57,321 bases of DNA from Marinicella marina (lineage in GTDB: Bacteria > Pseudomonadota > Gammaproteobacteria > Xanthomonadales > Marinicellaceae), in the NCBI RefSeq assembly GCF_030065545.1, contig NZ_JASJNC010000012.1, forward strand, positions 1 through 57,321, in the 5' to 3' direction. The notes under the pieces were generated by a model. It saw only the letters and a list, made by a program, of their open reading frames with translations, was not told where the DNA came from and did not search any database. Shown in pieces: positions 4,549 to 19,262 of this stretch. Both the position numbers and the translations under genes were made by a program. Positions within the stretch are counted from its first letter, which is position 1; the number at the start of each line of letters is the position of its first letter.

Positions 4549-4745
4549 TGAATCCTCTTTAACATGTGAACGTCATTCATCATAAATTGTTTCAACAATT
4601 AAACCAACGCATACCTCAAAAAGTCTAAAAAACAACACCAAAGTAGCAACATGAAATACCCACTGAGATGCCCTCATACGACATTGCCGGTTCAATCAAC
4701 AAAAAATATGTTGTAAACTCCCAGCAATAAAACATGAGGGATCCC

Positions 4746-6047
4746 ATGCAAGTCAAACAAACTATTTTCAAAAAGTCAGTTTTGGCCACTGCCTTGTTAA
4801 TTGAAATATCCACCCAAGCCCATGGCGCCATCATTGCTGTTAACAATGACGACTGTACCTTGGCGCAAGCCATTGAGTCAGCCAATACAGACACTGCCGC
4901 AGGCGGCTGTGCTGCTGGCAATGGCGATGACACCATTGAGCTACCCAACAACAGTGTAATTGCATTAACCACGGCTTTACCACCCATCATTAATGATGTA
5001 ACCATCAATGCCAACAACACCACCATCAGCCGCGATGTCAGTGCGCAAACCCAATTTTCACTGATTCAACTTGGCTCATCTGATTACATCGCTAATTTAC
5101 CTGTTTTAGAGTTGAATGATGTGACATTAGATGGTGGTGACAGAGCCGGCAATTATGGCGGTGCCATATCCACCCTGAATGCCAGTCTGTACCTCAATGA
5201 TTCAACCATCACCAACAACATTGGCGGCGCCATCACATTGACCAGCAACAACACTTCAGTCATAAACAACAGCGTCATCAGCAACAACCAATCCTCACCT
5301 TTTGGATTGGCCAGTTATTACGGTGGCGCCGTCTCAGTCAACAGCGGTGAATTAACCATTAACAGCACAACGATTGCTGACAACCAATCCAACAGCGGAT
5401 TGGGCGGAGGTGGGATATACGTATCAAACTACGGCGGTGCGGTGACACTCAATGTCATCAATTCAACCATTTCAGGCAACTCAACTGTGTTTGATGGCGC
5501 TGGTATTTTTCATTATGACTTTCAAGGCTTAAGTAACTCAGCCATCAACATCACATCCAGCACCATCGTCAACAACCAAGCCAATGATAATGGTGGCGGC
5601 ATTCATAACGAACTGGCCGATGTTGTGGTACGACAAACCATCATTTCAGGCAATACCGCCACCAATAACGGCAATGAAGTCAACTCTCTCGGTGGCAGCT
5701 TCACCCTCAATGATTATAATTTGATTGGCTTGAATAATGACGATGGCTCAACAGGCATCACCCTGGGCGCTACTGACATCGTACCCAGCGTCAATAATTT
5801 GAATGAAATAATCATAACAGCATTGAGCGACAATGGTGGTAATACCCCAACGCACAACTTATTACCAGGCAGTCCTGCCCTTGACGCCATCAGTGGATCA
5901 TGTGCCTTGAGTGTTGATCAAATCGGCAACAACCGACCCAATGATGGTGATGGCGACATGATAGCCGCCTGTGACATTGGTGCAGTAGAGTACACTGTCA
6001 TTGAAGACCTTATTTTTATCGATGGCTTTGATTTCGACAACAATTAG
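4746..6047 (+). CDS. Secreted parallel beta-helix protein, CSLREA-like start, C-terminal DGFD tail
   Basis: Probable surface or secreted repeat protein, role unknown. From the ATG at 4746 (GAGGG 5 bases upstream; the ATG at 4734 would use that GAGGG as codons) the product is 433 residues. It has a signal peptide ending AHG, a CSLREA-like opening (DDCTLAQAIESAN), many Asn/Ser/Thr/Gly-rich beta-helix rungs (for example STISGNS, STIVNNQANDNGGGIHNE) and the choice-of-anchor-type segment HNLLPGSPALD with DIGAVEY. It ends DLIFIDGFDFDNN, a tail shared with the proteins at 13013-14713 and 18549-19262. No transmembrane anchor follows. Confidence 0.85.
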   Translation: MQVKQTIFKKSVLATALLIEISTQAHGAIIAVNNDDCTLAQAIESANTDTAAGGCAAGNGDDTIELPNNSVIALTTALPPIINDVTINANNTTISRDVSAQTQFSLIQLGSSDYIANLPVLELNDVTLDGGDRAGNYGGAISTLNASLYLNDSTITNNIGGAITLTSNNTSVINNSVISNNQSSPFGLASYYGGAVSVNSGELTINSTTIADNQSNSGLGGGGIYVSNYGGAVTLNVINSTISGNSTVFDGAGIFHYDFQGLSNSAINITSSTIVNNQANDNGGGIHNELADVVVRQTIISGNTATNNGNEVNSLGGSFTLNDYNLIGLNNDDGSTGITLGATDIVPSVNNLNEIIITALSDNGGNTPTHNLLPGSPALDAISGSCALSVDQIGNNRPNDGDGDMIAACDIGAVEYTVIEDLIFIDGFDFDNN

Positions 6048-6071
6048 ATAATGCCAATCAAGCACCGCCAC

Positions 6072-6106
6072 AAAAAAAGCCCAGTCAATTGACCGGGCTT
6101 TTTTAT
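6072..6106 (-). terminator. Rho-independent terminator after prpBC, possibly bidirectional
   Basis: An inverted repeat pairs AAAAAAAGCCC-x-GTC with GAC-x-GGGCTTTTTT. In RNA from the minus strand the odd position is a G-U pair and a U-run follows, so it best serves prpB-prpC. In plus-strand RNA the same position is an A-C mismatch, so termination of the beta-helix gene is possible but weaker. Confidence 0.85.
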
Positions 6107-6125
6107 GAGTAACCAGTAATTTGGT

Positions 6126-7256
6126 TTAATCGCGATCTGCAATCGGTCCAACCTTCCGTGTATCAGGCCCGGTGTAATCGGCATTCGGTCTGATGATGCG
6201 ATTATTTTCACGTTGCTCCATCACATGCGCGGTCCATCCAGTAACACGTGACATCACAAAAATCGGCGTGAACAGCTCAGTCGGTATGCCCATGAAATGG
6301 TAGGCTGATGCATGAAAGAAATCAGCATTGGGGAACAGTTTTTTCTCGTCCCACATTTTCTTCTCAACAGCACAACTAACAGGATAAAGCACCTCATCAC
6401 CAACCTCATCGGCTAATTTTTCAGACCAACGTTTGATGATCGCATTGCGCGGATCGCGTTCGGTGTAGACCGCGTGTCCAAAGCCCATGATAAGTTGTTT
6501 GGTGCGCAGCATTTCATCAATGCCTGCCTCGGCCTCCTCCACACTGGAGAATTTCTGCAACAATGCCATCGCAGCTTCATTGGCACCACCGTGTAATGGT
6601 CCACGCAAAGCACCAACTGATGCCGTCACACAAGAATGTATGTCAGATAAGGTTGATGCCACCACTCGGCCGGTAAAGGTTGAGGCATTGAACTCATGCT
6701 CAGCATAAAGAATCAAAGAAACATCCATCACTCTGGCATGTAATTCACTGGGCTTTTTGCCGTGCAACATCTCTAAAAAATGTGCACCCACGCCATCAAT
6801 GTCAGAATCGGTTTCAATGCGCACACCCTCATGAGCAAACTTGTACCAATAACAAATGATTGAAGGGAAGATAGCTACCAAACGATCAGCTTTATCCAAC
6901 TGCTGCGAAAAATCTGTTTCAGTTTCAATGTTGCCCAAAATTGAACAACCCGTTCTCATCACATCCATGGGGTGAGCGTCGGCTGGAATCAACTCTAAAG
7001 TCTTTTTTACTGCCTCTGGTAACTCACGCAAAGAGTTGATTTTCTTTTTGTAAGCATCCAATTCAGCTTGGTTAGGTAACTTGCCATGTAAGATCAAGTA
7101 CGCCGTTTCATAAAAACTGGCGTTGGTTGCCAAATCGTCAACGTCATAACCGCGGTATGTCAGGCCAGCGCCAATTTTACCTACCGTACATAATTTAGTC
7201 TCACCAGCACTTTGGCCACGTAAGCCGGCGCCGCCAGCTTTTTTTGTATTACCCAT
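6126..7256 (-). CDS. prpC: 2-methylcitrate synthase
   Basis: Condenses propionyl-CoA with oxaloacetate in the methylcitrate cycle, cytoplasmic. The 376-residue protein shows the citrate-synthase-fold residues: His in LRGPLHGGANE, His in MGFGHAVYTERDPR and Asp in NADFFHASAYH. The SIICYWYKFAHEG segment and the short length are typical of PrpC rather than of the longer hexameric citrate synthases. It starts 2 bases after the stop of prpB, so the two are co-transcribed, and a terminator follows. No acnD or prpF lies next to it, so 2-methylcitrate dehydration must be done by an enzyme encoded elsewhere. Confidence 0.95.
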   Translation of the reverse strand: MGNTKKAGGAGLRGQSAGETKLCTVGKIGAGLTYRGYDVDDLATNASFYETAYLILHGKLPNQAELDAYKKKINSLRELPEAVKKTLELIPADAHPMDVMRTGCSILGNIETETDFSQQLDKADRLVAIFPSIICYWYKFAHEGVRIETDSDIDGVGAHFLEMLHGKKPSELHARVMDVSLILYAEHEFNASTFTGRVVASTLSDIHSCVTASVGALRGPLHGGANEAAMALLQKFSSVEEAEAGIDEMLRTKQLIMGFGHAVYTERDPRNAIIKRWSEKLADEVGDEVLYPVSCAVEKKMWDEKKLFPNADFFHASAYHFMGIPTELFTPIFVMSRVTGWTAHVMEQRENNRIIRPNADYTGPDTRKVGPIADRD

Positions 7257-7258
7257 AA

Positions 7259-8161
7259 TTATTTGTCCTCTGCTTGTTTATCTGTTGAAAATAATTCATC
7301 TAATTTCGTCTCATAGCTGTGATAATCTAAATGATTGTACAGCTCTTCTCTGGTTTGCATGATGGCCAGCACATCCTTCTGGTGACCTTGCTCCAAGATT
7401 GATTGGTAAACAGTTTCAGCCGCACGGTTCATGGCACGGTAAGCGCTGCAACAATACAACACAATATCTACACCATGACTGCCAAGCTCATCGCTGGTAA
7501 ACAGTGGCGTGTGACCAAATTCAGTGATGTTGGCTAAAATCGGCACATTCACTGCATCCTTAAATCGCTGGTATTGTTCCAGTGTCTTCATCGCTTCAGG
7601 AAATATCATATCAGCACCAGCCTCAACACAAGCCACCGCTCGCTCAATGGCCGCCTCTTCACCTTCAATCGCCAAAGCATCGGTTCTGGCCATGATCACA
7701 AAGTTCTCATCGAATCTGGCATCAACCGCTGCTTTGATGCGGTCAACCATTTCAGCTTTGCTGACGACTTCTTTGTTGGGCCTGTGTCCACAACGTTTTT
7801 GTGCCACTTGATCCTCTATGTGCATGGCAGCAGCACCTGCTTTGATCACTGACCGTGTGGTTCTGGCGATGTTGAATGCACCGCCCCAACCAGTGTCCAC
7901 ATCTATTAATAAGGGCAAATCACACACATCCGTGATTCGTCTCACATCTGTCAGCACATCTTCCAATGATGAAATCCCCAAATCAGGCATGCCCAGTGAG
8001 TTAGCGGCCACACCACCACCTGATAAATAAATGGCCTGGTGACCAACGTTTTTGGCCATTCTTGCAGTGAACGCATTGATGGTTCCTACCACTTTGAGGG
8101 GGTTGTTTTCAGCGACAGCTTGGCGAAATTTTAATCCCGCGCTATTAATTGGTTTGTTCAT
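7259..8161 (-). CDS. prpB: 2-methylisocitrate lyase
   Basis: Splits 2-methylisocitrate into pyruvate and succinate. The 300-residue product contains [20 protein letters not shown], the catalytic loop KRCGHRPNK and the IMARTDAL motif, closely matching E. coli PrpB in order and length (about 296). The ATG at 8161 is chosen because homologous sequence begins there; the upstream in-frame TTG at 8221 would add 20 unlike residues. No strong Shine-Dalgarno is visible. A roughly 140-base leader runs from the promoter at 8311-8319 and contains the hairpin arms CAACAG/CTGTTG. No PrpR-type or GntR regulator lies beside it. Confidence 0.94.
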
Positions 8162-8310
8162 ATTTGAATCGTTTATATTAGGCTTTGGGCATCGATGCAA
8201 CAGCATCACTGTTGGCCTCAAAGCATGAATAAAGAAGCATGGTTGAAGCTTACAGGTGCGAGAATGCGACCAACTAAAACCTCAATTTACAGCTTTTTTC
8301 CGGCCGCCGG

Positions 8311-8319
8311 ATTATAACA
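8311..8319 (-). promoter_or_regulatory. Extended -10 promoter element for prpBC
   Basis: The minus strand reads TGT TATAAT, a perfect -10 with the TG extension. Transcription would start near 8304, giving a leader of about 140 bases before prpB. No good -35 is present at 16-18 bases, as is common for extended -10 promoters. The 245-base gap holds no further gene. Confidence 0.55.
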
Positions 8320-8406
8320 GAAAGGGCCAAATATAGCCAGGTGCATATTGTTGAGAGCCCGTGCCAAGCTGCCCCATGAGACAACCAGCACATCCAGCGA
8401 TTACAA

Positions 8407-9450
8407 CTAACTTTCTAGGGTGCGGATCAGGCCGTTGATGCCACCTTGTAAAGCATAGACATCATAGCCCAATGTGGCTAAAGTGAAGGCCGCTGATGCA
8501 CAGCGCGAACCCAGGTTGCTGCAAGTAATGATGGTGGCATTGAGGTTCAGTTTATGGACATTTTTACGGATGTGGTTGACTGGGATATTGAAACAGCCTT
8601 GAATGGATTGGCGGTTGTACTCCTCAGGCTCTCTGACATCAATCAAGGTGGCACCAGCAGCGAGGTGTTCTAGGGCTGATTGTGCAGTGATCCAGCGAAC
8701 CACGTGCGCTTTTAACAAGCGAGAAAATTTTGCCGCTGATAAACGCATCAACAAACCATCAGTCTTCATGCGAACAGAAGCGTTTCGGGGTTCTGTGCTG
8801 ACCAAAGCAGATTCGCCAAATAATGCACCATTGCTCAGCTCGGCCACCTTCTTTTCACCCTCAGCAATGACTTGGTAAACTTCAGCAACACCTTTTGCAA
8901 TGATGTAACAGTAATCACCTGAATCACCTTCGGCAATGACCTCAGTGCCAGATTTCACGACCACAGAATCAAGCTCATTGAATAACTCTTCAATGTTACC
9001 TTGGGGCAACATCTGTACTGAGCGGCTTTTTAACAAACCTACTACCCAAGCATAATCATCATGTCCACGCAAAGGACTTTCGATATCAACTTTGCTATAA
9101 ACTCCGTTCCATACCTGAATGTGATCAAGTAGATTTGAGCTGATTTGGAAACCACTCATGTTTTTGGATTTGACCACCGCATCCATGGTGTTTGACTTGT
9201 TGGCATCGCCAATGGGGTATTTGGATGAAAGTGAGGTAGACTTGAGGGTTTTTTCACGTCCCTTATCAGTCGTGATTTGAACCACACCATGGGTCAGGTA
9301 TTTGGTATTTTCCGCCGGGCGATTGATTTCATAAAGTTTATCGCCTTGGTGTTTTTCAAAAAACTCACATTCACCCAACAGCAATGGATAGAACTTCATC
9401 TCAATCTTATTGAATGGGTAGTACTGTTGTAGTTCTTCAGCCTTGATCAT
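8407..9450 (-). CDS. Cyclic-nucleotide-binding domain and rhodanese fusion protein
   Basis: Probable cytoplasmic sensor with a sulfurtransferase-like output; role unknown. The 347 residues appear to hold a degenerate cNMP-like domain (about 10-110), a second cNMP domain (about 135-255) whose phosphate-binding cassette reads FGESALVSTEPRNAS (211-225) with the key Glu and Arg kept, and a rhodanese domain (about 255-347) with LIDVREPEEY and active-site loop CSNLGSR (Cys310, Arg316). There is no DNA-binding helix-turn-helix, so this is not a CRP-type regulator. It is a single gene, divergent from ampG across 162 bases. Confidence 0.85.
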   Translation of the reverse strand: MIKAEELQQYYPFNKIEMKFYPLLLGECEFFEKHQGDKLYEINRPAENTKYLTHGVVQITTDKGREKTLKSTSLSSKYPIGDANKSNTMDAVVKSKNMSGFQISSNLLDHIQVWNGVYSKVDIESPLRGHDDYAWVVGLLKSRSVQMLPQGNIEELFNELDSVVVKSGTEVIAEGDSGDYCYIIAKGVAEVYQVIAEGEKKVAELSNGALFGESALVSTEPRNASVRMKTDGLLMRLSAAKFSRLLKAHVVRWITAQSALEHLAAGATLIDVREPEEYNRQSIQGCFNIPVNHIRKNVHKLNLNATIITCSNLGSRCASAAFTLATLGYDVYALQGGINGLIRTLES

Positions 9451-9558
9451 AGGGATCCCAAATTTATTCGCTTCACAGAAATAATAACCGATTTAAAAAA
9501 ATAACACAAAATCTAATCTATCGAAACCGCGTCAATTGACCAATATCAATTTGAAGCA

Positions 9559-9587
9559 CTGGCAATCAGCAATCATCATGCTACACT
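9559..9587 (+). promoter_or_regulatory. Likely promoter of ampG
   Basis: CTGGCA (9559-9564, 4 of 6 matches to TTGACA) lies 17 bases before TACACT (9582-9587), which has the TG extension (TGC TACACT). Transcription would start about 20 bases before the ampG ATG. Confidence 0.5.
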
Positions 9588-9612
9588 TTGCATAATTGTA
9601 ACCAAGTTTGTC

Positions 9613-11145
9613 ATGCCTGAAACCCTGAAACACCTGATCCACCCCAAGTTTTTACATATGACGCTGTTTGGCTTTTCCGCTGGCATCCCTTATTTTCTTA
9701 TTTTTTCCTCATTGTCATTGTGGTTAGACCAAGTGGGCGTGGAAAAATCAGCCATCACCTATTTCAGTTGGGCCGCCTTAGGTTATTCATTCAAATACCT
9801 TTGGTCGCCCTTGGTGGATCGCCTACCCATCCCATACCTCAGCAGGCGCATGGGACAGAGGCGAGCCTGGTTACTCTGCATACAATTATTGATTATGGTG
9901 GCCATCAGTTTGATGGGTTTAACCAACCCCGCAGCCAGCGAACAGGCATTGGTACAGATGGCTTTGGCTGTCACCTTATTGGGGTTTTCAGCAGCCACCC
10001 AGGACATCTTGATTGATGCCTGGCGCATTGAAGCATCCACCGAAAAAGACATTGCCATGCTGTCATCGGTTTATACGGTAGGTTATCGTTTAGGTATGCT
10101 GACCTCAGGTGCTGGCGCCTTGTATATTGCCGCCTATTTTGGCACCAGCATGGACAACTACCAGTACAGCGCCTGGAAAATCAGTTATTTGTCTATGGCC
10201 ACTGTCATGCTGGTGGGTTTAGGCACCACCTTGTGGATTAAAGAACCCAAAAAAGCAGACTCATTGGTTCACAAAACCAAGGATTATATGGCCGTGGTGG
10301 CGGTCTTCGTTATCAGCATTGGCGTGTTGATTTTGACTTATCAAATGACAGCTGGCCTGTTTCAGACCGTACAAGAACAGATGTTGGCATGGACCGGTAA
10401 CAAGCCATTGTCCTCCACCTTCACCACCGCTGGGCAACTGTTGCTGGCTTTGTTGTTGGCAGCCATCACTGCCCGGTTGGTGTCAACCAGCAGCTGGGTC
10501 AACATCGACATGATCAAAGAGGTTTACTGGTCTCCTGTGCATGACCTGTTCCTGCGCCACAAACAGCATATATGGCTGATCATCGGTATCATTTGTTTGT
10601 ATCGAATTTCTGACATCGTGATGGGCGTGACCGCCAATTTATTTTATCAATTCAAGGGTTTTGATTTGGATGAAATTGCTGGCATTGTTAAAACTTTCGG
10701 CCTCATCATGACCATCAGCGGTGGCATTGTGGGCGGCTTTTTGGTTGTCAAATACGGCATCATGCGAATCATGATCATTGCTGCTGTATTGTCCGCCGCC
10801 ACCAATTTATTGTTCATGGTGATGGTCGATATGGAAAAAAGTTTGGTTTATCTGACCTTCATGATTTCCGCTGACAACCTGTCTCAAGGCATGGCCTTAA
10901 CGGCTTTTGTGGGCTTCTTGTCTCTTCTGGTTAATCGCCAATTCACCGCCGTGCAATACGCCATGTTTTCATCAGTGATGACCTTGTTCCCGAAAATCTT
11001 GGGTGGATATTCTGGTGGCATGGTGGAACAAATGGGCTATGCCAACTTTTATTTGATGACTGCGATCATCGGCATCCCAGTGGTGTTGATGTTGATGTAT
11101 GCGAAAAAAGTCAAAGCATTTGCATTTGATCACAAGAAAGAGTGA
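9613..11145 (+). CDS. ampG: AmpG-family muropeptide permease (MFS)
   Basis: Inner-membrane importer of anhydromuropeptides for cell-wall recycling. The 510-residue protein has about 14 hydrophobic segments and the AmpG signatures SWAALGYSFKYLWSPLVDR, the following basic loop RRMGQRRAWLL, and AATQDILIDAWRIE. These residues are diagnostic of AmpG rather than of other MFS proteins. The ATG at 9613 gives MPETLKHLIHPKFLHMTLFG, a normal start; no clear Shine-Dalgarno precedes it. An 84-base gap with its own promoter separates it from the hydrolase gene, so it is probably transcribed alone. Confidence 0.92.
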   Translation: MPETLKHLIHPKFLHMTLFGFSAGIPYFLIFSSLSLWLDQVGVEKSAITYFSWAALGYSFKYLWSPLVDRLPIPYLSRRMGQRRAWLLCIQLLIMVAISLMGLTNPAASEQALVQMALAVTLLGFSAATQDILIDAWRIEASTEKDIAMLSSVYTVGYRLGMLTSGAGALYIAAYFGTSMDNYQYSAWKISYLSMATVMLVGLGTTLWIKEPKKADSLVHKTKDYMAVVAVFVISIGVLILTYQMTAGLFQTVQEQMLAWTGNKPLSSTFTTAGQLLLALLLAAITARLVSTSSWVNIDMIKEVYWSPVHDLFLRHKQHIWLIIGIICLYRISDIVMGVTANLFYQFKGFDLDEIAGIVKTFGLIMTISGGIVGGFLVVKYGIMRIMIIAAVLSAATNLLFMVMVDMEKSLVYLTFMISADNLSQGMALTAFVGFLSLLVNRQFTAVQYAMFSSVMTLFPKILGGYSGGMVEQMGYANFYLMTAIIGIPVVLMLMYAKKVKAFAFDHKKE

Positions 11146-11194
11146 TACAGCTTTGTCAATCATTCGCTTGGTAGTTCAGCGAGCGGGCTTGCAA

Positions 11195-11203
11195 TGCTAT
11201 AAT
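11195..11203 (+). promoter_or_regulatory. Extended -10 promoter for the hydrolase-zapE pair
   Basis: The sequence TGC TATAAT is a perfect extended -10 element, 27 bases before the ATG at 11230. The -35 region 17 bases upstream (TTCAGC) matches poorly. Confidence 0.6.
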
Positions 11204-11229
11204 GCTGCCTTTTTTGATACCAATTAACC

Positions 11230-11895
11230 ATGTCTGAAGCACCAACTGATTTCCCCAAAGAGTCTACTGTGGTCACTTTGCCTGGCCCAGCAGGCCAGAT
11301 AGAATGTTTGATGGCGCCACCAGAGTCTGATGCCGTTGATAAGAATCGGGTCGCTTTGATTTGCCACCCCCATCCATTGTATGGCGGCACCATGCGCAAC
11401 AAGGTGACTCACATGCTAGAAAAAGCATTCCGAGATATGGGCGCCCACACCATACGTTTCAATTTCCGTGGTGTTGGCGAGTCTGATGGTGTTTTTGATG
11501 ATGGTGTTGGCGAAGCTGAAGACCTATTGGCGGTCTACCAATGGGCCAAGGAAGTGATGCCACATTGTAAGTTTTGGTTGGCGGGTTTTTCTTTTGGTTC
11601 CTATGTCGCACTTCGGGCCGTACATGACATCAACCCGGAACAATTCGTCACTGTGGCACCACCGGTTGAACGCTATGATTACTCTGAATTAGAACCGCCG
11701 GCTTGCCCCTGGCTGGTGATTCAAGGAGACGAAGATGACGTAGTCAGCCCCCGTGCTGTTTATGAATATGTTGAGCAACAAAATCCCAAGCCACAGTTAA
11801 TCACCATGAAAGCAGGCCATTTCTTTCATCGGCGTTTGCTCGACTTGAAAGGCGCCATCAAGAATGGTTTACTGCGCCAAGTTAATCCCGACTGA
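11230..11895 (+). CDS. Alpha/beta hydrolase (COG2945-like)
   Basis: Probable cytoplasmic serine hydrolase, substrate unknown. The 221-residue protein has the family motif ICHPHPLYGGTMRNKV near residue 43, the oxyanion/turn segment FNFRGVGESDG, the nucleophile elbow GFSFGS, an acid in QGDEDDVVSP and a terminal His in KAGHFFHRR, so a full Ser-Asp-His triad is present. This small family without a lid domain is common in proteobacteria. Its stop is followed almost immediately by zapE, so the two probably share a transcript. Confidence 0.88.
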   Translation: MSEAPTDFPKESTVVTLPGPAGQIECLMAPPESDAVDKNRVALICHPHPLYGGTMRNKVTHMLEKAFRDMGAHTIRFNFRGVGESDGVFDDGVGEAEDLLAVYQWAKEVMPHCKFWLAGFSFGSYVALRAVHDINPEQFVTVAPPVERYDYSELEPPACPWLVIQGDEDDVVSPRAVYEYVEQQNPKPQLITMKAGHFFHRRLLDLKGAIKNGLLRQVNPD

Positions 11896-11898
11896 TTG

Positions 11899-12957
11899 AT
11901 GACCCAGCCAGGCCCAAAAGCCAAATACCTTGATGAAATAGAGTGCGGCGTTATTTGGCGTGATGAACTCCAAGCTGCTGTGGTTGATGAATTCCAACGA
12001 CTCTATGATGACCTAGTCAAACCTAAAAAGAAAAGCTGGTTGTTTAAAAGCAAGGAACCGGCTGCAAGGGGTATTTATATCTATGGCTCTGTTGGTCGCG
12101 GCAAAACGCATTTGATGGATCTGTTTTTCGATACCTTACCTGACCATGTGGGAAAAAGACGCCAACACTTCCACGAGTTCATGCTGTGGTTACACCTGCA
12201 GTTGCGTAACCAAGGCGATGCCAAAGACCCTTTGGATAAAATCTGTAAAAAACTGGCCAGTACCACCCAAATCCTCTGCCTTGATGAATTTTTAGTCAAT
12301 GACATTGCCAATGCCATGCTGTTGGCCGGCGTTCTTCAAGCGTTCAATCAACACGGCATCGCCATGGTAACCACCTCAAACGTCAAGCCCGATGACCTTT
12401 ATTTAGACGGCTTACAACGGGCTAAATTTCTCACTGCCATTGATTGGATCAATCACAACATGCAAGTATTGCATTTAGATGGCACACAAGATTACCGCCA
12501 ACAAGAAGAACAACAACACGAACATTGGTACTACCCAATCAACGATTCCAGCCAGATGCACTTAAATGAGTGTTTCATCAAATTATCTAATCATGCCACA
12601 TCTCGCTATGATGATTGGCAGATTAATGACCGCAAGCTATCAGTCATCAAACACGCTTACAAAACATTGTGGTGTGATTTTTCAGCTTTGTGCGACACAC
12701 CACGCAATGCCGATGATTACATCCAAATAGCGGCAAAGATTGACCACCTTATTGTTGCAAATATTCCACAAATGAACAGCAACCAAGATAATGCAGCCAG
12801 GCGGTTTATTACTTTGATAGATGTGATGTATGAACACGGCGTTAAAATCATTGCAGAGGGCGCCTGTCATTACAAAATCATTTATCAAGGCAAAAAAATG
12901 GCCTTCGAATTTGAGCGAGCGGCCTCACGCTTGGCAGAATTACTGGTCAGCGAGTGA
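11899..12957 (+). CDS. zapE: Cell division ATPase ZapE (AFG1 family)
   Basis: AAA-type ATPase that in E. coli acts at the division ring late in constriction. The 352-residue product carries Walker A GSVGRGKT (63-70), the family segment HFHEFMLWLH, Walker B ILCLDEF and the sensor-like VTTSNVKPDDLY. The ATG at 11899 lies 3 bases after the hydrolase stop; an in-frame TTG at 11896 is the only nearby alternative. Length and order match ZapE/YhcM. The 55 bases after it hold no clear terminator. Confidence 0.93.
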   Translation: MTQPGPKAKYLDEIECGVIWRDELQAAVVDEFQRLYDDLVKPKKKSWLFKSKEPAARGIYIYGSVGRGKTHLMDLFFDTLPDHVGKRRQHFHEFMLWLHLQLRNQGDAKDPLDKICKKLASTTQILCLDEFLVNDIANAMLLAGVLQAFNQHGIAMVTTSNVKPDDLYLDGLQRAKFLTAIDWINHNMQVLHLDGTQDYRQQEEQQHEHWYYPINDSSQMHLNECFIKLSNHATSRYDDWQINDRKLSVIKHAYKTLWCDFSALCDTPRNADDYIQIAAKIDHLIVANIPQMNSNQDNAARRFITLIDVMYEHGVKIIAEGACHYKIIYQGKKMAFEFERAASRLAELLVSE

Positions 12958-13012
12958 GCATCCTTGCTCATGATGTACACTACAAGTTCAAAAATTAACA
13001 GACCACCTGCTT

Positions 13013-14713
13013 TTATTCACCCTCAAACCCATCTGCAAAGATGATATCCAGACCATACAATTCATTCGACATGGTGCTGGTGGTACCAGACCAGGTATTA
13101 CCAATCACTCCATCACTTTGAGCGGTACTGGTGGTCCTGATACCAAATCCACCTGGCAGTGGCGCGGATAGATTGAAACTAAAATCACCATTGGCATTGG
13201 CATTGACTGCGCCTAAATGTGCCAGAGCCTCTTCGTTCTCATCGTCATCATCAAGATAAAAATCAATCAAACAATTGGGGCATGGACTGGGATCACCTTT
13301 GACATTACTGGCATTGCTGGTTCCTGCTATCTGTGTGCCACTGATGCTGGTAATCACAGCTGGCTCAAACAACCTTTTGGCCGATGAAATCATGGGACCC
13401 ATCTCAAAATACCTTTCAGGACCATTGATCACTATGTTACCGCGAACGGTATTGCCCCCATCCAAAAATGCGGGGCTACTGGTATCGGTCCACAGTATCG
13501 CACCCTTGGTGTTCTCAAAACCGTTGCGTGAGGAATCAATCAAGTTATCGATCACCAAATGACCGTTGTTTTGTGGGTCTAAAACATCAGTTTGGGTGGA
13601 GAATTTAATACCCTGGCCACAGACACCTATTGTCCCTCCGGCCACATCTTGACCGATGATGTTGTTTTCAATGGTGTGTAAAGCACCAAACACAGTCAAC
13701 GCTTGTGGTGGTGTGTCATTGGTGCTGCGGATGTTTTGTAAACCAGCGATGACGTTGCCTTGAATCATTGCTCCAGTTCCAGCGATGTTGATACCGGCGC
13801 CGCCAAACCACTCATTCTCGTCCAGTTCATTGGGGTTTGGACTGATGCTTTGAAAGGTTCGACAAGCCAAATTATCGGGCACTGCAGGCACCGTACCATT
13901 GATATTCAGACCAATCCAATTGTCAACTATCTGCAAACCGGTGGTGCTTGAACTGACCTCAACAGCATAGGTCCCTGCGCCTGTTATGATGTTGTTCTGG
14001 ACCAATAGATCATTGGCATTATTGGTGCCTAATACGCCGTGATTACCCGCCAAGTTGTCGATATTGGTATCGGGTGCCGCAAACACCATTTCACTGCCAT
14101 CTGGACTCAACCCCCAAGTGTTGTTCATAAAACTGAAATTGGCTTCCTTGGCATGGACACTCATACCGCCATAAAACCCCAATGACTGGATCGAAACTTG
14201 GCTTAACTCAATTTCCAAGGTTTTACTGCTTCGAACCATGATCAGTGGCATTTCATTGTTATTCTGTATATCAACAGGACTGCCTACGATATTAACCGGC
14301 CCAGTGACATCTGTGATGGTTTGTGGGTACAACCCAAAATCACTGGTACTGGCCCCGCCAGCTATGGGTAAAACCCACTGCCCAGCATTAAATTGGACGT
14401 CATCGGCATTGCCATCTGTGCCGTTCAAACCGTTGAATACAATGGTCACAGGAGCACAGCCTGAACAAAAGTCATCATTGGCTATGGCCCCAGCCTCTCT
14501 GAGGGCGCGCCGTAAAGTACATTTATCGGCACCTGAACCAGTGGTGTCAGGGAAGAACAAGCCGCCCTGAGTGTAATTACATGTGTGGTTGTTGTTGTTT
14601 GGCTCTTCATCCAAAGCCCAATCAACAGTGATGGTGGTTTGTGCCGCTGAGCTTCCCATATAAAGCATAAACACAGCAACCCAAGTCATCTTTTTAAACT
14701 TGATATAATTCAT
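13013..14713 (-). CDS. Secreted CSLREA-type beta-helix protein with C-terminal DGFE tail
   Basis: Probable extracellular or surface protein, role unknown. From the ATG at 14713 (GAGGAG upstream; an in-frame start 6 codons earlier overlaps that site) the product is 566 residues. It has a signal peptide ending SSAAQ, a CSLREA-like segment (KCTLRRALREAG) and right-handed beta-helix repeats such as VQNNIITGAGTYAVEVSSS, NVIAGLQN and ENNIIGQDV. The C-terminal part, about residues 455-550, looks like an Ig-like beta domain (PCPNCLIDFYLDDD). It ends LDIIFADGFEGE, the tail shared with the proteins at 4746-6047 and 18549-19262. It stands alone downstream of the pxp operon. Confidence 0.85.
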   Translation of the reverse strand: MNYIKFKKMTWVAVFMLYMGSSAAQTTITVDWALDEEPNNNNHTCNYTQGGLFFPDTTGSGADKCTLRRALREAGAIANDDFCSGCAPVTIVFNGLNGTDGNADDVQFNAGQWVLPIAGGASTSDFGLYPQTITDVTGPVNIVGSPVDIQNNNEMPLIMVRSSKTLEIELSQVSIQSLGFYGGMSVHAKEANFSFMNNTWGLSPDGSEMVFAAPDTNIDNLAGNHGVLGTNNANDLLVQNNIITGAGTYAVEVSSSTTGLQIVDNWIGLNINGTVPAVPDNLACRTFQSISPNPNELDENEWFGGAGINIAGTGAMIQGNVIAGLQNIRSTNDTPPQALTVFGALHTIENNIIGQDVAGGTIGVCGQGIKFSTQTDVLDPQNNGHLVIDNLIDSSRNGFENTKGAILWTDTSSPAFLDGGNTVRGNIVINGPERYFEMGPMISSAKRLFEPAVITSISGTQIAGTSNASNVKGDPSPCPNCLIDFYLDDDDENEEALAHLGAVNANANGDFSFNLSAPLPGGFGIRTTSTAQSDGVIGNTWSGTTSTMSNELYGLDIIFADGFEGE

Positions 14714-14856
14714 CGTTCTCTCCTCTTCCATTCAAATAACAATTTCCTTGATCGACATTAAAATCAAGAAACGCATAGATAAATGTTAGAGAAAACACGC
14801 TCTTTAAACCTGAAAAAACCTTGAAATTATCTTGAAATTTAAACCCTGAACGTACC

Positions 14857-15729
14857 CTAAAAGCGGGTTTCGACAAAAAAATGAATTTTTTCACCTGGTC
14901 TGACTTGTGCCAACAGAGACAGTTGTTGTTGGTGAACAACCAGTATCCTTGGATAGCCACCTGTGGTTTGTGCATCGCGCATGGCCAATATGGCTTGACC
15001 ATCTGGGGTGACTTGTAGACTGCCGGGCACCAAACCGGAACTTGCTGTGACCTGGATATTTGTCACATCCAGCGGCTTTGATTTTAGCCTGAAGCCTTGT
15101 CTGTCTGCCGCAGCGGTCAACTCATAACTTTGAGAGAAAGCCTGTTTGATGGTGTTCTGGGAAAATAAATGAACTTCAGGACCAGGCATGGCACGCACCA
15201 CATGAAAACTTGGTGGGTGGTATTTTTTCCAATTGGGTTTACCTTTGTTAGTTACCAAATGTGGCTGAGATAATTCAACCACATCTCCTGCTCGCAATGG
15301 GCGACCATTGAAACCGCCAACCGATGCCGACAACAAAGTACTTTTACTGCCCATTAGAACCGGCACATCAATACCACCTGCAAATGCGGCATAGGCGCGC
15401 ACCCCTGATAACAAACGCTGCATTTTAAAATGACTGTTGGCGCGTAACTGAATGACCGAGTCAGTTGAGACCTCCTGACCATCCAACTGACAAATAAATT
15501 CTGCACCAGCTAAAGCCATTGAACAGGCCTGCTGTGCAGTGAACTCCAACCCACTCCATGACATTTCTAATACAGCACAGCCGGGCTCATTACCGACCAT
15601 GTGGTTGGCCAACTGTGCGGCAGCTTGATCCATACAACCAGAAACAGGAAAACCTAAATGCGCCGCATGCCAGCGACCGCCATCCTGCACTGTGGTCAAA
15701 CCACCTGCTTGTATGATTTCAATCGCCAT
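14857..15729 (-). CDS. pxpC: 5-oxoprolinase subunit C
   Basis: Subunit of the ATP-dependent prokaryotic 5-oxoprolinase (PxpABC), which opens 5-oxoproline to glutamate. The 290-residue protein has the family opening IEIIQAGGLTTVQDGGRW, the GFPVSGCMDQAAAQLANHMV segment and AYAAFAGGIDVPVLMGSKST, all typical of the KipA/urea-amidolyase C domain. It overlaps the end of pxpB by 11 bases and is the last gene of the operon. Slightly shorter than the usual 300-310 residues. Confidence 0.93.
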   Translation of the reverse strand: MAIEIIQAGGLTTVQDGGRWHAAHLGFPVSGCMDQAAAQLANHMVGNEPGCAVLEMSWSGLEFTAQQACSMALAGAEFICQLDGQEVSTDSVIQLRANSHFKMQRLLSGVRAYAAFAGGIDVPVLMGSKSTLLSASVGGFNGRPLRAGDVVELSQPHLVTNKGKPNWKKYHPPSFHVVRAMPGPEVHLFSQNTIKQAFSQSYELTAAADRQGFRLKSKPLDVTNIQVTASSGLVPGSLQVTPDGQAILAMRDAQTTGGYPRILVVHQQQLSLLAQVRPGEKIHFFVETRF

Positions 15730-16459
15730 GATTTTTGCCTATACTTTTTCCGCAACAATTGCCTGAATTGTTGCTTTGAGCAATGCGCATAAAGGCAGCT
15801 GCATCGATTGATTTAAACCTAACCCGATCATGCGGTTTGATTAAGTTCGCAGGTGTTTTATGCCAATTTAATAGTGGCGTTGGGCTGCGGCCAATCACGT
15901 GCCAACCGCCCGGGCTGGACAGGGCATACAAGCCTGTCTGATCGTTAGCCACTGCCACACTGCCCGCTGACACCCGCACTGCCGGGGTGTTTTTTCTCGG
16001 CAGGCAAAGGCGCTTATCATTGCCCTTGAGGTAGGTAAATCCAGGCAAGAAGCCAAGCATCACAGCATCGTACAATGGTTGGGTATGAGCCGCAATCAAA
16101 GCTTCTCTAGACAGACCAACTTGTTCACAAACTTGATTTAAATCAGGCGCATATTGAGCCTCGTAACAAACCAAAATTTCATGAACTGTTGACTCCACAT
16201 CGCTTAATTGTAGCTGGTCTATTCTTTGTTGAATCACTGTTTGCCAGTCCAAATAATGATTGACTGTTTGCTTGAAAACCAGCACTAAATTGTCACTGGC
16301 TGGAATCACATTAATTAAATCCTTGAGTGGTTTTTCTATGAAGTCAGTGGCGAGTGTTTGTATCCAACGGGATCTGTTTGCGGATGCTTTGAACCGCAAC
16401 AGCAAAGCACAATCACCATTGGGTATGATTTGTTTGAGCAGCAATGCGTTCATAGGCAT
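15719..16459 (-). CDS. pxpB: 5-oxoprolinase subunit B
   Basis: KipI-like subunit of 5-oxoprolinase. The 246-residue product shows the hallmark GFLPGFTYLKG, the LPRKNTPAVRVSAGSVAVA segment and SSPGGWHVIGRSP, which form the active-site region of this family (a DSPGGW is more usual than SSPGGW). Starts at 16459 or two codons later are both possible. It lies 6 bases after pxpA and overlaps pxpC, consistent with a stoichiometric complex. Confidence 0.92.
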   Translation of the reverse strand: MPMNALLLKQIIPNGDCALLLRFKASANRSRWIQTLATDFIEKPLKDLINVIPASDNLVLVFKQTVNHYLDWQTVIQQRIDQLQLSDVESTVHEILVCYEAQYAPDLNQVCEQVGLSREALIAAHTQPLYDAVMLGFLPGFTYLKGNDKRLCLPRKNTPAVRVSAGSVAVANDQTGLYALSSPGGWHVIGRSPTPLLNWHKTPANLIKPHDRVRFKSIDAAAFMRIAQSNNSGNCCGKSIGKNHGD

Positions 16460-16465
16460 CAGTCT

Positions 16466-17230
16466 TCAACTGGGTGCTTGGATGCTGAATCCCGCAGCTT
16501 TGATCCCCTGATTTAACGTGCGTGCCGCAGCCACAGCGTTTGGGTGATCACCATGCAAACACATGGTTGCCACAGATATACGCACTGATTCACCCGAAAC
16601 GGTGTTCACCTGACCCTTTTGTAGCAGCTGTAGTGCTTGTTGTAGTTGTCGTTTTGGATCATCAATACAGGCACCATCAAGGTGGCGAGGCAACAGTGTT
16701 TTTGTCGCGGTATAAGCTCGGTCAGCAAATCCCTCTGCAACAAAACCCAGGCCTAATTTGCTGGCAGCTGTTGCCAGTTCAGAGTGCGCCAAACCATACA
16801 CCAGCAAGCCTGAATCAACAGCTGCAACAACTTCCACTATCAACTCTGCCAAAGATGCATCAGTCGCTGCTTGGTTGTACAAGGCGCCGTGAGGCTTTAT
16901 ATGATGTAATTCGCCACCACAAGCTTCGGCCTGTTGTTTTACCAGCATGATTTGTTGTTGGATGGACGTCTGCAAATCAACTCGATTAATTCGCATCACG
17001 GTTCGACCGAAATTCTCACGGTCTGGATAGGCAGGATGCGCACCAATCTTAACTTGGTGATTAATCGCCCACTGAACAGTCTGTTTGATGACCGGCTGGT
17101 TACCCGCATGGGCACCACAGGCGATGTTACAGGAACTGATAAAAGGCATGATTTTGGCATCTGATGCGCCTTCGCTTGGACTGTCATACTCGCCTAAGTC
17201 ACAATTCAAATCTATTGATGGTGTGCTCAT
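16466..17230 (-). CDS. pxpA: 5-oxoprolinase subunit A (LamB/YcsF family)
   Basis: Catalytic-type subunit of 5-oxoprolinase. The 254-residue protein begins with the diagnostic DLNCDLGE (7-14) and contains FISSCNIACGAHAGN, KIGAHPAYPDRENFGR, HIKPHGALYNQA and MCLHGDHPNAV, the conserved His/Asp motifs of the family. Its ATG overlaps the stop of the transporter gene as ATGA, so translation is coupled to it. Gene order is transporter, pxpA, pxpB, pxpC. Confidence 0.95.
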   Translation of the reverse strand: MSTPSIDLNCDLGEYDSPSEGASDAKIMPFISSCNIACGAHAGNQPVIKQTVQWAINHQVKIGAHPAYPDRENFGRTVMRINRVDLQTSIQQQIMLVKQQAEACGGELHHIKPHGALYNQAATDASLAELIVEVVAAVDSGLLVYGLAHSELATAASKLGLGFVAEGFADRAYTATKTLLPRHLDGACIDDPKRQLQQALQLLQKGQVNTVSGESVRISVATMCLHGDHPNAVAAARTLNQGIKAAGFSIQAPS

Positions 17231-18432
17231 GAAGTGAATGCAAAATACAAAGACTTACCACCCAAAAATAAGGTGACCGATATCACCAGTAAGCCCAATA
17301 AATTATGTAACCAGGTGTTCTTAAAGCGGCCCAACAAGTTACTTTGATTCATGATATATAGTAAAAACATCGCTAACAGCGGCAGCAAAATCCCATTGGC
17401 AATCTGCGCAAACCAAATAATTGTGACTGGTTTGTATCCCGATAAGGACAAACCCAATCCGCTGAATAAAACCACCGCCCAGGTGAGTTTAAAACGCAAG
17501 TCTTTGCCATTTGTTGTCCAGCCCAACATGCCTGCCACTGCATAAGCTGCTGCCAATGGTGCAGTGATAGCTGATGAAACGCCCGCGGCAAACAACCCAA
17601 CGCCCATTGAAACAGAAGCCCATGAGCCCAATAAAGGCTCCAGCTGTACAGACATATCGGCTGCTGAATTAATCGCAATGCCTTGGCCAAAGAATGCCGC
17701 AGCTGCAGTGGAGATGATTGCCAAAGATATCAGCCCGCCCACACCAATAGAAACGATGGTGTCCTTTCTGACTTGCCGCAGACAGGCAGGATCGTGCCAC
17801 TTATTACTCACCGCAGAAGCATGTAAAAACAAGTTATAAGGCACCACTGTGGTACCGACCAACGCCATAACTGTTAACCAAGCACCATCAGGGATTTGCG
17901 GTCTCAGGCCACCCAACAATGCAGGAATGTCAGGTTGGGTGATGATAAAAGTGGTGATGAAGGCCAGACTCATCAATAGCACCAAAGCTATCAAAGCCCT
18001 TTCCAACACCCGATAACTGCCTTGAAACAGCAGCACAAAAGCCAGCGCAGCAACCATGATTGCCCAAGGAACATCGAGACCGGGTAACAAAGCCTCCATA
18101 CCCAATACCGCACCAGCAATGTTGCCACCCTGATAAGCGCTGTTACCAATGAAAATAGCCAGAGCAACCAGCGCAAACAATAAGGCCCTCAATAGTGGAT
18201 TTGTGAACTGTTTTTGCAACACCTCACCCAAGCCTTGTTGGGTCACAAGTCCCAATCTTGCCGACATTTCCTGCAGTAAAATACAAGCCACAATCGAAAA
18301 CACCAACGCCCAAATCAATGCATAACCAAAACCTGCACCTGCCAAGGTACAAGTGGTGACTGTGCCTGGCCCGATAAAAGCCGCTGCAACCAATGCAGCA
18401 GGGCCCATTGTGAATGAAGGTGTTTTAGCCAT
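17227..18432 (-). CDS. YcsG-like NRAMP-family transporter lacking the canonical metal-site residues
   Basis: Inner-membrane transporter of the NRAMP superfamily, 401 residues with about 11 hydrophobic helices. In helix 1 the usual DPGN reads GPGT (21-24), and in helix 6 the usual MPH reads VPY (197-199) within VVPYNLFLHASAV. The metal-binding Asp, Asn, Met and His of true Mn/Fe NRAMPs are therefore all replaced, while the surrounding family pattern is intact. It opens the pxpABC operon with a 4-base overlap; B. subtilis ycsG sits beside ycsF (pxpA) in the same way. I infer a substrate other than Mn/Fe, possibly 5-oxoproline; this is untested. Confidence 0.85.
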   Translation of the reverse strand: MAKTPSFTMGPAALVAAAFIGPGTVTTCTLAGAGFGYALIWALVFSIVACILLQEMSARLGLVTQQGLGEVLQKQFTNPLLRALLFALVALAIFIGNSAYQGGNIAGAVLGMEALLPGLDVPWAIMVAALAFVLLFQGSYRVLERALIALVLLMSLAFITTFIITQPDIPALLGGLRPQIPDGAWLTVMALVGTTVVPYNLFLHASAVSNKWHDPACLRQVRKDTIVSIGVGGLISLAIISTAAAAFFGQGIAINSAADMSVQLEPLLGSWASVSMGVGLFAAGVSSAITAPLAAAYAVAGMLGWTTNGKDLRFKLTWAVVLFSGLGLSLSGYKPVTIIWFAQIANGILLPLLAMFLLYIMNQSNLLGRFKNTWLHNLLGLLVISVTLFLGGKSLYFAFTS

Positions 18433-18548
18433 AGTTATGCCATTCTATTACAAACGCATCAGGGAAAGTATCCTTAGTTAATCGCCTAAAGTGTGAATTG
18501 TTTAACTACTTTCACATCAATTGTTCATATAATTGATATTTTGAACCG

Positions 18549-19262
18549 ATGAATACCATGAAAAAATCTATACTGATAATCGCATCGTTGTTGAGTTTTA
18601 ATACATTGGCAGTAGAACTTCAGCTCTTTCCTGAGAAAGACAACACCATTTATGAAACCAATAGTGCACCACTGAGCAATGGTGCAGGTCAGTATTTATT
18701 TGCCGGCAAAACCGGTGCCAATGGCGGTGAGGCAGTCAGGCGAGCCATCATTAAATTTGACTTATCCAGCATTCCACCAGGCACAACAATCAACAGTGCT
18801 GAATTGGTGTTGACAGTATCCCGCCGAGTTTCCAGCTCAAATGTTTCCGTTCACATGGCCGAGTCGGACTGGGGAGAAGGCACTTCAGATGCAGGTGGTG
18901 AAGAAGGCATGGGCGCACCAGCTGAGTTGAATGACGCCACTTGGATCAGTGCTTTCAATGGTGATGCTGAAAATGGTGGCATCTCCTGGAATAATGTCGG
19001 AGGTGATTTTGCTGCATCAGCCTCAGCAACAACGGCGGTCAATAATTTAGGGCCCATCAATTTCAGCAGTCCAAACTTAGTGGCTGATGTACAAAACTGG
19101 GTCAACGGCAGCAATGACAATTTTGGTTGGTTCGTGATAGGCGAGGAAGGCAGCCCGAGTACAGCGGTGCGCTATGTCAGCCGTGAAAATTTAGCCGAAC
19201 AACCCATGTTAATCATTGATATTGATCAGCTGGACTTGATTTATCGCAACGGTTTTGAATGA
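18549..19262 (+). CDS. Secreted DNRLRE-domain protein with C-terminal NGFE tail
   Basis: Probable extracellular protein, role unknown. The 237 residues consist of a signal peptide (to about residue 20), one DNRLRE-type beta-sandwich (FPEKDNTIYETN, RRAIIKFDLSSIPPGTTINS, VADVQNWVNGSNDNFGWFVI, VRYVSRE) and a short end, LDLIYRNGFE. That end matches the tails of two beta-helix proteins in this window. ATG codons at 18549 and 18558 are both possible; neither has a clear Shine-Dalgarno. A TATAAT at 18528-18533 may be its -10 element. It is divergent from the ycsG-pxp operon. Confidence 0.85.
   Translation: MNTMKKSILIIASLLSFNTLAVELQLFPEKDNTIYETNSAPLSNGAGQYLFAGKTGANGGEAVRRAIIKFDLSSIPPGTTINSAELVLTVSRRVSSSNVSVHMAESDWGEGTSDAGGEEGMGAPAELNDATWISAFNGDAENGGISWNNVGGDFAASASATTAVNNLGPINFSSPNLVADVQNWVNGSNDNFGWFVIGEEGSPSTAVRYVSRENLAEQPMLIIDIDQLDLIYRNGFE

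Follow-up and report, generated by a model that had tools for sequence, protein, structure and literature searches.

In this study, we analysed a stretch of 57,321 nucleotides of Marinicella marina (contig NZ_JASJNC010000012.1, positions 1 to 57,321; hereafter the window) in which three exported proteins with different bodies end in a shared tail of nine residues. We propose that this tail is, quite probably, a modular and linear C-terminal sorting tag carried by folded Sec-exported proteins that use one subclass of the type II secretion system (T2SS), here called T2SS-B, in the bacterial order of Marinicella and Dokdonella. A sorting signal had already been suggested in the preliminary description of this DNA. 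At the level of sequence, the suggestion is now supported by the enrichment of the tail at C-termini, by the signal peptides of the proteins that carry it, by its modularity in GSDH-type proteins and by its co-variation with T2SS-B across genomes.

The tail and the proteins that carry it

As a DNA pattern, the strict form of the motif, D-x-I-[FY]-x-[DN]-G-F-[DE], gave 51 matches in the genome to which the window belongs (G000; 3.46 Mb), against 0 for the reversed pattern that served as a control; a looser pattern gave 66 matches against 3 in the control. From these 66 matches we removed 4 without a start codon and 6 further rows (a contig-end protein seen twice, two open reading frames (ORFs) of less than 100 residues, a 5′-open ORF, and another copy of the motif within a protein that had been counted before), which left 56 distinct proteins. 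Many exported proteins with unrelated bodies indeed share one short C-terminal motif: it lies at most 21 residues from the end in 51 of the 56 and is exactly terminal in 32, and it lies further inside in 5, of which 3 run off the fetched stretch.

Position by position, the 56 tails have D in 51; [LVI] in 47; I in 52 or L in 4; F in 52 or Y in 4; any residue; D in 32 or N in 24; G in 56; F in 56; and D in 29 or E in 27. Because the search pattern demanded the core from [IL] on (its first place also allowed F or M), the G, the F and the acidic end carry no independent weight; the pattern left free the D and the hydrophobic residue ahead of the core. The information content is at background one residue before the D, which gives the nine-residue tail a sharp border. 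At the DNA level, 50 of the 51 strict tails differ, with 35 distinct third-position patterns, and since the DNA changes from copy to copy, the protein sequence is what selection keeps. From its sequence, the tail may form a tight beta-hairpin whose turn is made by F-x-[DN]-G-F. Two tails stand in tandem, about 10 residues apart near the C-terminus, in three proteins (L055, L091 and L134), and pairs of matches about 30 bases apart recur among those listed for genomes G002, G011, G012 and G013.

In the window (C4:1-57321 in our numbering), the strict motif is present at 6006, 13023 and 19233 only and the looser pattern adds no match, as expected from the earlier statement that no further protein there has the full pattern. 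The proteins and their tails are the following:

4734..6047, plus strand: tagged exported protein 1, with a signal peptide (crude rule), a beta-helix, a choice-of-anchor Q module and the tail
6006..6032, plus strand: tail 1, DLIFIDGFD, followed by FDNN and the stop
13013..14731, minus strand: tagged exported protein 2, 572 residues, with a weak beta-helix match
13022..13048, minus strand: tail 2, DIIFADGFE, followed by GE and the stop
18549..19262, plus strand: tagged exported protein 3, 237 residues, with a DNRLRE / CBM96 domain
19233..19259, plus strand: tail 3, DLIYRNGFE, exactly C-terminal

The three tails read as they were first given, and so do the positions of genes 1 and 3, the ORF of protein 1 having two possible starts, 4734 or 4746. 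The position of gene 2 had to be corrected, as it runs on the minus strand from 14731 down to 13013; read on the plus strand, the coordinates first given contain many stops. The body of protein P0001 is a choice-of-anchor Q module with a sub-threshold Beta_helix match and that of P0002 is DNRLRE/CBM96; a sub-threshold Beta_helix match is the sole body match for P0003, which has homologs in a Lysobacterales metagenome-assembled genome (MAG) (75%) and in an uncultured Marinicella MAG (67%). The description of the bodies as one DNRLRE protein and two beta-helices holds broadly.

A Sec signal peptide is expected of T2SS substrates, and a crude signal-peptide rule is passed by 54 of the 56 tagged proteins; of 220 control ORFs (120 residues or longer, taken from the same stretches as the tagged genes), 108 pass it; the rule is lenient (several starts tried), was applied alike to both sets and is not a dedicated predictor. 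With 51 of the 56 motifs near the end, the pattern is more frequent at the C-termini of exported proteins than chance would have it, which answers an objection that the preliminary description had itself raised. A lipobox-like sequence is found in 1 of the 56 tagged proteins versus 7 of the 108 rule-passing control ORFs, and a 19-residue hydrophobic stretch after residue 45 in 4 of the 56 versus 43 of the 220 controls. None of the 56 proteins has a membrane helix in its tail, 32 end in the acidic D/E of the motif, and some K/R follows the motif in a few others (for example L032, L041 and L065). The lack of a membrane helix and of a basic end, first noted on three proteins, holds for the larger set as well.

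The bodies are diverse, with 59 Pfam families across the 56 proteins and no family in more than 5 of them. In NCBIfam (E up to 1), choice-of-anchor Q is matched by 7, J by 2, B by 1 and F by 1 of the 56, next to M36 peptidase families whose names refer to a dependence on myxosortase, rhombosortase or type IX. The name choice-of-anchor denotes a domain found beside different sorting signals in different lineages, and our tail stands where such domains carry other sorting signals elsewhere. No model of the tail itself is present among the top 25 of 60 NCBIfam families or the top 25 of 59 Pfam families; as both lists are ordered by member number, a shared tail model could be expected at their head.

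Co-variation of the tail with T2SS-B

In a survey of the order to which Marinicella, Dokdonella and their relatives belong, we found the strict motif in 77 of 298 genomes. Genomes with at least 5 matches to the core [ILVM]-F-x-[DN]-G-F-[DE] were called tag-rich, a threshold set after seeing the data: the core has 5 to 189 matches in 73 genomes and 0 to 4 in the other 225, and with the core reversed, as a control, each genome has 0 to 4. In two other families, where 13 of 21 matches in G037 and 7 of 52 in G035 were read in sequence, the motif lies at most 6 residues from the end in 12 of the 13 and 6 of the 7 (one of these 18, L288, being an ORF of 68 residues), and the signal-peptide rule accepts 15 of these 20 ORFs, some of them with doubt. 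A stricter pattern that includes the stop gives at least 113 stretches in genomes of named species. Among the matches listed are records of Marinicella, Dokdonella, Pseudofulvimonas, Lysobacterales, Rhodanobacteraceae and Alcanivoracaceae, many MAGs named to class or phylum, one Sedimenticola and one Planctomycetales MAG. Outside the order, 3 of 272 genomes have the strict motif, with one match each (276 genomes of the class were searched). In one of these three, G447, the secreted-looking protein L217 ends exactly in DLIYKNGFD, which may reflect transfer or contamination, or else a tag that is more widely spread.

Searching 53 genomes for the T2SS secretin revealed two kinds, with matches over the cut-off in 51 of the 53. 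T2SS in general does not explain the tag, because the secretin is also present in tag-free genomes that have the Xps-type system only. Gene loci and a tree part this Xps-type system, with gene order E-F-G-H-I-J-K-L-M-N-D, from T2SS-B with full support; the latter has gspC-D-E, plus F, ftsE and ftsX in many genomes. T2SS-B was then called with a GspD profile over the 298 genomes, counting scores of about 780 bits or more, a class boundary set after seeing the data. The count includes the diverged G215 and G293, which the tree puts inside the clade (support 94/95), and fragments in G004, G007, G032 and G121; it leaves out G188 and G274, which fall outside the clade in the tree, G233, by its score alone, and Xcs-like matches of 369-503 bits.

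On this basis, 66 genomes are tag-rich with T2SS-B, 7 tag-rich without, 20 tag-poor with and 205 tag-poor without, so that T2SS-B is present in 66 of 73 tag-rich versus 20 of 225 tag-poor genomes. The odds ratio stratified by family is about 63; the p values ignore kinship within a family and should not be read at face value. What makes the link strong is its recurrence in two families: tag-rich genomes make up 13 of 14 with T2SS-B versus 0 of 86 without in family f12, and 2 of 3 versus 0 of 100 in family f2. T2SS-B looks nearly necessary for the tag, and not sufficient. The preliminary description had left the partner of the tail as unknown and had proposed to look for a gene family that co-occurs with the tail across genomes. 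Such a family was found in T2SS-B over the 298 genomes, and as it co-varies with the tag, the partner is no longer wholly unknown.

Two other candidates were rejected. Rhombosortase does not track the tag: TIGR03902 is over the cut-off in 14 of the 298 genomes, 2 of them tag-rich, and weaker rhomboid matches are found in all 298, a few lying just below the cut-off in the tag-rich G021, G025 and G150. As for a dedicated partner encoded beside the tagged genes, no non-tag neighbour recurs in 80 of the at least 113 named loci, the commonest being a Ser/Thr-kinase-like family at 5 loci and an ABC-F-like one at 4.

The modularity of the tail was followed on L076, a tagged protein of the GSDH type, compared with 30 chosen genomes (10 tag-rich with T2SS-B and 20 without T2SS-B). 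A GSDH homolog is present in all 10 tag-rich genomes, and the best homolog ends in the tail in 8 (in G249 the tail has decayed). Among the 20 genomes without T2SS-B, 9 have a homolog and none of these 9 has the tail; 7 of the 9 are remote (23-28% identical), and those of G039 and G049 are 41-42% identical and extend about 150 residues beyond the aligned part.

In the genome of the window, T2SS-B is located on contig C19, and a second, better-scoring gspG lies with pseudopilin-like genes on contig C21, where G and K are assigned by similarity and the other genes by their position and pilin-like starts. The gspCDEF-ftsEX cluster ends with a tagged gene, whose homolog in G001 ends in DLIFADGF, the last acidic residue being absent, and in G118 a tagged ORF adjoins gspC. 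GspC of the T2SS-B of G000 has T2SSC and PDZ matches both over the cut-offs. All 10 other GspC proteins have a PDZ-type match at E <0.05, which passes a Pfam cut-off in 3 (tag-poor G020 and G040, tag-rich G035) and is weaker in 7, among them the tag-rich G103, G118, G195 and G037 with sub-threshold matches.

Three side observations concern T2SS loci. At the T2SS-B locus of G000, about 6 kb from gspC, an exported-looking protein of 651 residues (L196:452-2404) has the variant tail DLIFSDNFE. Sigma-factor-like and Ser/Thr-kinase-like ORFs, so named from reading the sequence and not from a family scan, lie near T2SS-B in G000 (L196), and similar ORFs are found in G060, G118 and G239 (L199, L230 and L236). 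Finally, G188, which has no tags, has a diverged T2SS with a rhombosortase gene about 1 kb from gspD (L235, G188:C47:10000-29900), as if this system were coupled to GlyGly-CTERM instead.

A proposed route through T2SS-B and its alternatives

We can propose the following route for the tagged proteins. They would be exported by Sec and then fold; the exposed tail, probably a small beta-hairpin, would be recognised in the periplasm by T2SS-B, and the cargo would cross the outer membrane through the same system. The PDZ domain of GspC or the N-domains of GspD are plausible readers of the tail. The former is a reasonable one because, as far as described in PMC12369372, the PDZ domain decides the secretion of VesB in V. 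cholerae. Recognition of a free carboxylate, in the manner of a classical PDZ ligand, is made less likely by the extra residues that the tail tolerates, several of them following the motif in some proteins. Type I secretion, whose C-terminal signals can resemble D-L-I-F, was set aside since the tagged proteins, with few exceptions, seem to start with a Sec signal peptide. In a bolder version, put forward more tentatively and somewhat less likely than not, the tail would be the first linear and portable T2SS signal: nine C-terminal residues in a beta-hairpin, recognised by GspD or by the PDZ domain of GspC in one subclass. It would send dozens of folded proteins, and in some genomes nearly 200, across the outer membrane.

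Several observations weigh against a sorting tag for T2SS-B. First, 20 T2SS-B genomes have at most 4 core matches (16 of the 25 of family f9, G020, G096, G215 and G293); a PDZ-type match was found in 5 of 5 such tag-poor genomes checked, over a cut-off in 2, so that PDZ fails to separate tag-rich from tag-poor genomes. Conversely, 7 tag-rich genomes have no detected T2SS-B: four of them (G009, G014, G024 and G075) are drafts in fragments, which leaves G084, G108 and G144, of family f8, as exceptions. Families f8 (2 of 3 versus 3 of 21) and f1 (20 of 21 versus 3 of 4) are each not significant alone, and the co-variation is partly phylogenetic, with few independent gains or losses, T2SS-B and rhombosortase being the families screened. 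Finally, the GSDH homologs of the T2SS-B genomes G019 and G124 are untagged, and the protein L271 (G037:C1:101700-106300; 224 residues) has the motif directly after the signal peptide, at the mature N-terminus and not at the C-terminus.

The main rival to sorting by the tail is a surface anchor: T2SS-B would carry the proteins by the structure of their bodies, and the tail would later bind an outer-membrane or surface receptor, as in the case of GlyGly-CTERM in V. cholerae. Indeed, some bodies hold choice-of-anchor domains, tandem tails would fit binding by avidity, and the V. cholerae GlyGly-CTERM acts beside a separate T2SS signal, as far as PMC13393428 describes it. We nonetheless consider an anchor rather unlikely, given that the tail has neither the hydrophobic helix nor the basic end of a membrane anchor of known type, and that no receptor-like gene recurs next to the tagged genes in the 80 named loci.

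It is less likely still that another system, outside those screened, owns the tag and happens to share with T2SS-B the lineages in which it was retained or lost. While the few independent events, the 7 tag-rich genomes without detected T2SS-B and the 20 tag-poor genomes with it would all suit such a system, the link recurs separately in f12 and in f2, and rhombosortase, the one rival family tested, does not follow the tag.

The preliminary description had also considered that the tail might be an integral strand of each folded domain. AlphaFold models have low confidence there: P0002 alone gives a mean pLDDT (predicted local distance difference test) of 35.9, and P0001 with 8 rows gives a mostly confident beta-helix to about residue 329 and a pLDDT <50 over nearly all of 330-433, tail included. 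Even if this last stretch of about a hundred residues is compatible with a closing strand, such a strand, or chance convergence, is hardly credible with 59 Pfam families among the bodies, conservation confined to nine residues, 0 matches for the reversed pattern against 51, and homology of the GSDH protein L076 to PDB chains (best: hedgehog-interacting protein) that stops at residue 413 of 427, ahead of the tail, its last stretch being weak; the variety of bodies and the GSDH modularity thus disfavour the integral strand.

Comparison with known sorting signals

By its sequence, the tail is neither GlyGly-CTERM, nor PEP-CTERM, nor the type IX C-terminal domain. It resembles the PEP-CTERM/exosortase and MYXO-CTERM/myxosortase systems as a C-terminal tag on diverse exported bodies that is visible by bioinformatics, but both PEP-CTERM and MYXO-CTERM are tripartite and include a membrane helix. 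The type IX domain, which is immunoglobulin (Ig)-like, about 80 residues long, found in Bacteroidota and needed for passage through the outer membrane, is also C-terminal and without a membrane helix; our tail differs in its nine residues and its occurrence in Gammaproteobacteria, and no conserved domain of about 80 residues was found, conservation being at background right before the nine residues.

The likeness to GlyGly-CTERM/rhombosortase lies in a short C-terminal extension shared, in a many-to-one relation, by many exported proteins in species that generally have a T2SS, according to what PMC3237569 reports of it. However, PMC13393428 describes GlyGly-CTERM as made up of a Gly-rich motif, a membrane helix and a basic end, none of which is present in our tail. 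Moreover, as far as Haft and Varghese 2011 (PMC3237569) describe it, rhombosortase marks no particular T2SS subclass, whereas the present tag is tracked by T2SS-B.

With respect to T2SS, cargo information is held to be structural in the account of PMC7949064, and a linear universal secretion signal is described as lacking for T2SS substrates in that of PMC12369372. A GspC bearing a PDZ domain and recognition in the periplasm after Sec export, as presented for V. cholerae EpsC/VesB (PMC12369372) and Pectobacterium Pel3 (PMC7949064), are also what we propose here. Nevertheless, the determinants known from these accounts lie in structure, either in an Ig fold or in flexible loops, several of which act together, while the present tag is linear. 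In XpsN/XpsC, a single helix stands in place of the PDZ fold, as PMC11981180 presents it.

No published description of the tail was found among the papers listed in our searches of the open-access literature, motif letters included, and there is a fair chance that this C-terminal sorting tag is something new for type II secretion. How T2SS chooses its cargo is an old open question, and a tag carried by about 50 exported proteins of one genome and tied to one T2SS subclass makes this question directly testable. If our proposal is true, sequence alone would be enough to list the exported cargo in part of a large order, and the nine-residue tail could serve as an export tag.

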